From positions 1 through 33,582 of the IMG/VR virus record IMGVR_UViG_3300044993_000234: a stretch of 33,582 nt of DNA. One strand, given 5' to 3'. Shown here piece by piece: positions 25,870-26,687 of this stretch (positions are counted from its first letter, which is position 1; each line of letters opens with the position of its first letter). The stretch is from a virus. A program made the translations under genes and the position numbers. The notes beneath the pieces were generated by a model. The model ran no database searches, was not told the origin of the DNA, and was given only the letters and a program-made list of their open reading frames with translations.

Positions 25870-26687
25870 AACACCACCCCCCGCCGCTCAGAGTTCAGCG
25901 GTACATGCGGCCCCTTCGGAGCGAACAACCCTTGCCAGTCGTTCCGGATCGCTTCGTCGACCATGCGCTGTTGCGTGAAGTGATCAAACGCACCCAGCAG
26001 CGCCAGAGATTTTTTCGCCGAGACCTCGGAGATTTTCTTGCGCCTCGATTTCCGGTACTCGACCCACTCGGCCCAGGCGTTACGGTTGATCGTGGGCGGA
26101 AGTTCGATTTGCGCCGCATCGAACGAATCCCCCTTGGGGGGGGGATTTAGGGGGGGGGTTATATCTTCTCTTCTCTTCTCTTCTCTATGCGTTACTGTAA
26201 CGTTATCCGTAACGTTACTAGTAACGTTACTTTTTTCGGCATTGACAGCCCTGTTTTTCTCACGAAACCGGCGCTGTCTCTCGGCGTTTTTCTGCCTTGA
26301 TTTTTCCTCCGGATCGACATTGTTTTTGGCAAAAAATCCAGGAAATTCAATGCCATCGTCATGCTGTATAACCCAGCCTGCCTTTTCCATTGCCGAACCA
26401 AACCCAGGAATGTCCGCGATGTCATCAAGAACGGACACTGTAACGCCAAAGCAAAACAAATCGCTCTCGATGCGCTTTCCTTGGTGGCGCATAACGCCCC
26501 ACACAGACACAAGCGCACCAACCGTAACGTTACGCATAACGTTACGTGTAACGGTCATGTCACGATGACAAATCTGATTAACGTGACGCGCGAGCTCGCC
26601 GTCAACCGACATGAGCGCATCGGCAATAACCGAGACCTTCGGGTCTCGATATAAATCGGTGCGCATTTTTATCCAATCGCCAGCCAT
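25866..26687 (-). CDS. Lambda-O-like replication initiator with iterons inside the gene
   Basis: A 273-aa protein from MAGDWIKMRTDLYRDPKVSV, with GAGGG seven bases upstream. The N-terminal half is a winged-helix initiator module (ALVSVWGVMRHQGKRIESD, DDIADIPGFGSAMEKAGWV). The middle is basic (RQKNAERQRRFREKNR). The C-terminal 70 residues (NRNAWAEWVEYRKSRRKKISE, FDHFTQQRMVDEAI) resemble the partner-binding end of phage initiators. Repeated NVTx peptides at two places come from DNA iterons in the gene. Next to the primase-helicase gene, as O/P-type genes are. Confidence 0.78.
   Translation of the reverse strand: MAGDWIKMRTDLYRDPKVSVIADALMSVDGELARHVNQICHRDMTVTRNVMRNVTVGALVSVWGVMRHQGKRIESDLFCFGVTVSVLDDIADIPGFGSAMEKAGWVIQHDDGIEFPGFFAKNNVDPEEKSRQKNAERQRRFREKNRAVNAEKSNVTSNVTDNVTVTHREEKRREDITPPLNPPPKGDSFDAAQIELPPTINRNAWAEWVEYRKSRRKKISEVSAKKSLALLGAFDHFTQQRMVDEAIRNDWQGLFAPKGPHVPLNSERRGVVF
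26136..26186. repeat. Paired G9 runs and TTCTC tract next to iterons
   Basis: On the plus strand, nine G, ATTTA, nine G, then TTATA and about four TTCTC pentamers run straight into the iteron cluster. Strand-biased purine/pyrimidine tracts flank the lambda origin too. The G runs could form a quadruplex. They encode the REEKRRE and PPLNPPPKG stretches of the initiator. Confidence 0.7.
26191..26230. repeat. Iteron cluster A (candidate origin)
   Basis: GTAACGTTA(C) starts at 26197, 26209 and 26221, each exactly 12 bp apart, with a further GTTAC half at 26191. Each unit is a 10-bp palindrome. They lie inside the initiator gene, followed by a T6 run. Iterons within an O-type gene mark the origin in lambdoid phages, so this is the best origin candidate. 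Confidence 0.65.
26524..26556. repeat. Iteron cluster B
   Basis: GTAACGTTAC at 26524, ATAACGTTAC at 26536 and the diverged GTAACGGTCA at 26548 again have 12-bp spacing. The cluster is 327 bp from cluster A in the same gene. Two clusters could allow looping by the initiator. Confidence 0.6.

Follow-up and report, generated by a model that had tools for sequence, protein, structure and literature searches.

The genome of this phage probably replicates from a lambda-like origin that lies inside the gene of its own initiator protein, and this putative origin appears to be accompanied, within the same gene, by a second, auxiliary cluster of initiator-binding sites. The window analysed is a stretch of 33,582 nucleotides of viral DNA (IMG/VR record IMGVR_UViG_3300044993_000234), the features of which are collected in Table 1. 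A candidate origin with iterons inside the initiator gene had been proposed in an earlier sequence-only reading, and this proposal is supported by the identity of the gene, by the primase-helicase encoded beside it, and by the conservation of the repeats at the DNA level. Cluster 1 falls within the code for the N-terminal domain of the initiator, and cluster 2 within the code for the linker between its N- and C-terminal parts.

Table 1 Features of the candidate origin region and the adjoining replication genes (coordinates in the window)
Feature	Position	Strand	Description
Iteron cluster 1 (N-terminal)	26524-26552	minus	GTWAC half-sites, 5/7-bp steps (12-bp unit)
Iteron cluster 2 (linker)	26191-26230	minus	GTAACGTTAC-NN-GTAACGTTAC-NN-ATAACGTTAC-N-GTAAC (SNVTSNVTDNVTVT)
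Purine tract	26164-26186	minus	23 nt, all purine (AGAGAAGAGAAGAGAAGAGAAGA); encodes REEKRRED, then TATAA; presumed DNA-unwinding element
C-runs and short hairpin	26129-26158	minus	C9-TAAAT-C9-AA-G5 (gene strand), directly 3' of the purine tract
Replication initiator gene	25866-26687	minus	273 aa, ATG at 26687, N-terminus MAGDWIKM
Primase/DnaB-type helicase gene	24136-25869	minus	PHROG 239 DNA primase/helicase (3e-99); Pfam DnaB_C, Toprim

By profile, the product of the gene that carries both clusters is a replication initiator: it matches PHROG 2509 'replication initiation protein' (8e-30), and its residues 129-261 match PHROG 678 'replication initiation O-like' (7e-20), in agreement with its earlier description as lambda-O-like. 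The primase-helicase gene follows directly downstream. The protein returned no Pfam family at E ≤ 0.1, and an iteron-plasmid origin of the Rep_3/RepA type, which calls for a Rep_3-type initiator, was rejected. An AlphaFold model built from 47 sequences shows an N-terminal domain with helices and a beta hairpin (pLDDT mostly >90) that may be winged-helix-like, a long basic helix (127-154), a disordered linker, and a C-terminal part; the stretch encoded by cluster 2 (linker residues 154-167) is a low-confidence region of this model. In model numbering (M = 2), the peptide encoded by cluster 1 is VTRNVMRNVT, residues 47-56, where the domain helix 49-70 begins. The N-terminal domain bears a weak likeness to the CAP-type winged helix (best VIA-align Z 5.0, 67 residues, 2.7 Å, model residues 52-119). 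Foldseek against the PDB gave nothing at E ≤ 0.001 for the model, and the initiator profile found a single weak match among PDB sequences (E 0.017); against BFVD, four unnamed or uncharacterised proteins passed E ≤ 0.001, and the named replisome organizers scored no better than 6e-3 and 2e-2. Elsewhere in the window, a gene for a NinB/Orf recombination mediator lies at 23565-24008 (Pfam NinB, 1e-33), and the genes for a SNF2/DEAD-type helicase and, after it, an N6/N4 DNA methylase occupy 27635-29892, divergent from the replication genes. The records of phiPSA1 (L300, 901-1695) and VB_ST_SPNIS2 give the name 'pyocin large subunit' to their initiators of this family, apparently a misannotation.

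The repeated unit, GTAACGTTAC, is its own reverse complement. The sequence-only reading had described two triplets of such palindromes with a 12-bp spacing, offset by 327 bp (26197 to 26524); the spacing and the offset are correct, but only three of the six palindromes are exact (26209, 26221, and 26524), two are near copies with one mismatch (26197, GTAACGTTAT; 26536, ATAACGTTAC), and the last, at 26548, is a half-site (GTAACG only; GTAACGGTCA, three mismatches to GTAACGTTAC). An additional half-site, GTTAC at 26191, lengthens the linker cluster. Over the whole window, 14 matches to GTAACGTTAC with at most two mismatches are found vs 4.64 expected, a count reached in 0 of 100 shuffles, and the densest 60-bp segments for GTWAC begin at 26191 (six copies) and 26524 (four), with no more than two copies anywhere else. 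The purine tract and the TATAA that follows it (together 26160-26186) adjoin the linker iterons. Origins of the lambda type have inverted-repeat iterons placed between the N- and C-terminal parts of the initiator, beside an AT-rich, purine-asymmetric tract and in a single cluster; the window shows all of these features save the last, owing to the cluster at 26524-26552. Past the tract, the C-runs are able to pair with the G-run, and among 75 cluster representatives of the family two C-runs (C4+..C4+) follow the tract in 17 (expectation, 3.9) and a C4+..G4+ hairpin does so in 12 (expectation, 0.8). Cumulative GC skew, suggested earlier as a check, does reach its minimum near the gene (26501-27500); however, gene direction switches at the same place, and the minimum therefore gives no independent support for an origin.

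The repeats are more frequent than the protein sequence demands. When synonymous codons are shuffled with the protein held fixed, the initiator gene of the window is expected to contain 1.24 near-palindromes and 5.2 GTWAC 5-mers; it contains 5 and 12, values reached in 0 of 500 shuffles in each case. The shuffle was extended to relatives (150 genes for 136 unique proteins, 134 of them tested after two under 300 nt were left out), which likewise retain the DNA repeats in the face of synonymous drift. We also profiled how often relatives with the same amino acid at a position use the same codon, in subsets hand-picked for diversity prior to the profiling (24 of 48 genes whose linker iteron is of the GTWAC class and 28 of 55 of the GTCCGC class). 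Only three islands of synonymous-codon conservation emerge, namely the N-terminal cluster (codons 43-56), the linker cluster, and the purine tract, with an excess identity of about 0.4-0.65 against a per-window median of 0.086-0.087. The tract is the strongest of the three; in 75 representatives its arginine codons are AGA 192 times, AGG twice, and CGN never, as compared with 106, 138, and 1393 outside it. The exact 23-mer AGAGAAGAGAAGAGAAGAGAAGA recurs in 88 of the 126 tract-bearing relatives and in 47 of 75 cluster representatives, figures to be read with the recruitment in mind, since relatives were gathered by protein with EEKRREDI among six peptide patterns, so that the tract peptide, though not its codons, was partly selected; later recruitment used no EEKRREDI pattern. 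The linker repeat is moreover read in several frames, GTAAC in f1 (92) and f0 (86), and GTTAC in f0 (36), f2 (9), and f1 (3). The codon-shuffle excess, the codon islands, and these multiple frames together indicate that the conserved entity is the DNA.

The comparison with relatives shows that the second cluster is present in most of the family and that it generally repeats the iteron of the linker. Of the 132 genes that reach 450 nt, 126 have the purine tract by the rule used, and their linker iterons fall into the classes GTWAC (48), GTCCGC (55), GTCAC/GTGAC (20), GTCTAC (2), and other (1); the six genes missed by this rule, which varies slightly between analyses, do carry GTWAC at both places. 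The N-terminal region of each class is enriched in the motif of its own linker relative to the synonymous shuffle, with 5.04 vs 2.04 copies per gene for GTWAC (48 genes), 3.35 vs 0.52 for GTCCGC (55 genes), 3.8 vs 2.17 for GTSAC (20 genes), and 3.0 vs 0.91 for GTCTAC (2 genes). The same result is obtained de novo, by counting in the N-terminal region the commonest 6-mer of each gene's own linker with no motif set beforehand. This 6-mer occurs there at least twice in 67 of the 75 cluster representatives, with a mean of 3.33 copies against 0.99 in the shuffle and 0.48 for the motifs of other genes (p ≤ 0.05 in 53 of 75). In a held-out set of 30 clusters, drawn from loci gathered later and less than 70% identical to every earlier one, it does so in 21, with a mean of 2.43 against 0.73 and 0.35, respectively (p ≤ 0.05 in 19 of 30); 27 of the 240 loci of this sample have no WIK-type start, and 3 of its 33 representatives were left out as having no tract. 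Of 15 named family members that have a tract, among them epsilon15 and Rac YdaU, 14 agree (shuffle p ≤ 0.05 in 10 of 15), a count that leaves out the phiEf11 and IPP12 rows as well as Carin1 and pPE4, which have no tract. Finally, of the 105 representatives, 92 could be assigned at both clusters, and 87 of these have the same iteron class at both.

Profile-HMM recruitment from whole-genome samples found initiators in 2 of 274, 5 of 148, and 2 of 194 genomes. Twelve HMM-recruited loci were scanned, and all four ORFs with a tract repeat the linker motif in the first part of the gene, although three of the four belong to genomes sampled before. Fewer than two N-terminal copies of the own linker motif are found in 8 of the 75 representatives and 9 of the 30 held-out ones, and this absence from some relatives means that the N-terminal cluster is not indispensable to the family. 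Among these, six initiators with a WDDPR-type N-terminus have linker repeats and no N-terminal cluster; Carin1 too has a WDDPR-type initiator. Iteron-class switches along the tree are few, with four independent pairs on supported branches for each of GTWAC and GTSAC. A sign test of coupled switching (2.3 on average the same way, 0 opposite) was not significant, and it was dropped because the independent switches are too few.

The geometry of the two clusters is alike in the GTCCGC class, where the commonest arrangement is >0 >11 <24 <46 at the N-terminal cluster (19 of 55) and >0 >11 <24 <35 at the linker (16 of 55), so that the spacing 0/11/24 is common to both. The position of cluster 1 within the domain varies by class (median nt 160, 165, and 81), as do the peptides that it encodes, and the cluster medians lie 196 to 354 bp apart. 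Helical phasing of this distance was considered as general evidence for looping and dropped, as it is present in one class only: it appears in the GTCCGC class (R 0.75, 30 representatives; p 0.051 when distinct distances alone are counted) and was not seen in GTCACG (R 0.29, 16 representatives).

Several known systems resemble parts of this arrangement. In lambda, the O protein binds four iterons and an AT tract is opened (PMC7466680), and gene O likewise has its inverted-repeat iterons mid-gene, ahead of an AT tract that is rich in purines on the gene strand. The four annotated O-binding iterons lie in the corresponding part of the gene; however, they are annotated as 18 bp long and form one cluster, whereas the present phage has a 12-bp palindromic unit and two clusters, and the 6-mer repeated in the lambda linker has no copy in the N-terminal part of gene O. 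The earlier statement that the arrangement differs from the lambda plan thus holds for the second cluster, which is absent in lambda, but not for the linker cluster and its tract, which amount to the lambda plan, extended. Firmicutes initiators annotated 'replisome organizer' (phiEf11, Streptococcus IPP12, Staphylococcus 71) share the linker GTAACGTTAC units, the offset GTAAC end, and the purine/AT tract, but have no N-terminal cluster (0.42 GTWAC per gene vs 0.54 expected in 31 unique initiators). In contrast, Salmonella phage epsilon15 (Uetakevirus) and Rac YdaU have both clusters and the tract, though with other iterons (GTCCGC; GGTAACGC/GCGTTACC) and, in Rac, with a DnaC-like gene downstream of ydaU. 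The sites in the epsilon15 initiator gene lie at nt 54, 65, 78, and 100 and at nt 333, 344, 357, and 368; these clusters hold 8 of the 18 sites in the 39.7-kb genome and are its only dense windows. Rac has an active origin, oriJ (PMC3945230), which is not known to lie within ydaU.

Based on the above data, we propose the following model. The N-terminal winged-helix-like domain of the initiator would bind the linker iterons, strand opening would take place over the adjoining purine/ATATAA tract (26160-26186), and the neighbouring primase-helicase would be loaded at the opened tract. That the linker array is the core origin is very likely. We also consider it likely, with nearly the same confidence, that the initiator recognises cluster 1 as well, given that this cluster shows the same motif as the linker array and, in one class, the same arrangement. 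This second binding, some 300 bp away at a site that lacks a neighbouring purine tract, could raise the local initiator concentration or pair with the core by looping, in the manner of the paired sites of P4 and SPP1, and it may also limit initiation or transcription of the gene. In P4, two sets of initiator sites, ori and crr, act in one replicon; we know of no placement of these sites within the code for the DNA-binding domain of the initiator. In SPP1, a single initiator, gp38, binds two sites, each composed of direct repeats and an AT-rich element, although only oriL is within gene 38, oriR being located some 13 kb from it (PMC6316719). The phage-inducible islands (PICI) have two iteron sets flanking the AT-rich region of the origin (PMC6092414), but these are outside the code for the DNA-binding domain of the initiator. 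In Stx phages, the extra iterons 1' and 1'' are needed for transformation by P27-derived plasmids, and they have been proposed to raise the local O concentration or to stabilise the O-some (PMC7466680). These precedents from Stx phages, SPP1, and PICI make an auxiliary or looping role our first guess and autoregulation the next, although we give only even odds to an auxiliary part in initiation for cluster 1 as against a mainly regulatory one.

The strongest competing explanation, which we regard as unlikely, is that cluster 1 is mainly an operator through which the initiator blocks its own transcription and so limits its own amount, the linker alone being the origin. Such a role would suit the location of cluster 1, fewer than 200 nt into the gene and away from any purine tract, and it would suit the absence of cluster 1 from the initiators of lambda and Firmicutes phages, whose linker arrays stand alone. 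Operators, however, usually overlap promoters, whereas cluster 1 sits within the ORF whichever of the four classes is considered, and among GTCCGC genes it has the geometry of the origin array. It is far less probable that another protein, a phage repressor or a host factor, reads the repeats. The occurrence of the motif in phages of both Gram-positive and Gram-negative hosts could point to a shared host factor, but the motif varies among relatives of one initiator family, a change that a fixed host factor would not follow, and the clusters are confined to the initiator gene both in the window and in epsilon15. Still more doubtful is that cluster 1 constitutes a second, independent origin: its iterons are identical to those of the linker cluster, in one class down to their arrangement, but no purine/AT tract lies beside it, and the synonymous-conservation profile contains a single tract, beside the linker cluster.

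The least credible alternative, of very slight probability, regards the repeats as by-products of a needed NVT peptide repeat, the DNA itself having no role; it is rejected on the evidence of the synonymous shuffle and the codon-conservation profile. The repeats do encode NVT peptides, as the sequence-only reading had described, and at least 120 viral contig stretches contain a 22-bp two-palindrome pattern drawn from them. In 80 loci examined, 81 of its 84 matches are read in the NVT frame, two in another frame, and one lies outside long ORFs. About nine of the long ORFs, tail- or fibre-like by eye, contain GNVTGNVT-like repeats and bear identical DNA through peptide repetition, which is why finding the pattern is not enough to identify an origin. 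Against the peptide stand the synonymous codons fixed precisely at the repeats, the relatives that read the same DNA as GNA, ALP, VTL, or SN, the other classes in which unrelated peptides replace NVT and a repeat is retained, and the linker GTWAC 5-mers found in all three frames. Comparison with relatives had been set beforehand as one of the checks, with conservation of the amino acids but not of the DNA repeats as an adverse outcome; as the codons are fixed, the same class recurs at both clusters, and other reading frames are used in some cases, the repeats prove to be kept as DNA and not as an NVT peptide. Many other ORFs with the pattern are Firmicutes-type initiators, with the array in the linker followed by a purine/AT tract, and the linker array also occurs in initiator genes of named Streptococcus, Enterococcus, and Staphylococcus phages; the linker cluster has a 47-bp match (93.6%) to Streptococcus phage DNA, inside an initiator-like gene. 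Matches to the pattern in Vibrio, Synechococcus, and Salmonella phages fall in other genes and look like chance, and a blastn search of named phages with the N-terminal cluster gave chance-like matches only.

The initiator gene would therefore contain a variant of the lambda-type intragenic origin, so called because of the cluster at 26524-26552, at a place where lambda has none. Judged from the genes compared, this variant appears to be common to many phages of Gram-negative hosts, and its second cluster appears to be new. Among the open-access papers listed in literature searches, none mentions this motif or a second cluster within an initiator gene in its title or abstract opening, which does not prove its absence, and a 2006 review of phage replication modules by Weigel and Seitz may, reportedly, describe some intragenic origins.

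We lean, with modest confidence, towards a general view in which a large group of Gram-negative phages has a two-part origin, spelled out at two places of the initiator gene, namely the linker, next to the tract, and the code for the DNA-binding domain, with binding specificity and both arrays changing together. If this is true, a short DNA segment both helps to encode its reader and serves that reader as one of its targets. Such coupling would constrain the amino acids of the DNA-binding domain; the coding sequence of this predicted domain is itself under constraint, as a presumed binding site. Initiator and origin would then form an inseparable, incompatibility-like unit, swapped whole between phages. 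The role of the second cluster is testable, as its codons can be changed silently with the protein untouched. Concrete candidate origin coordinates and a readable iteron are provided for many phages and prophages for which no origin map was found, among them epsilon15, its Uetakevirus relatives, and Rac-like prophages.
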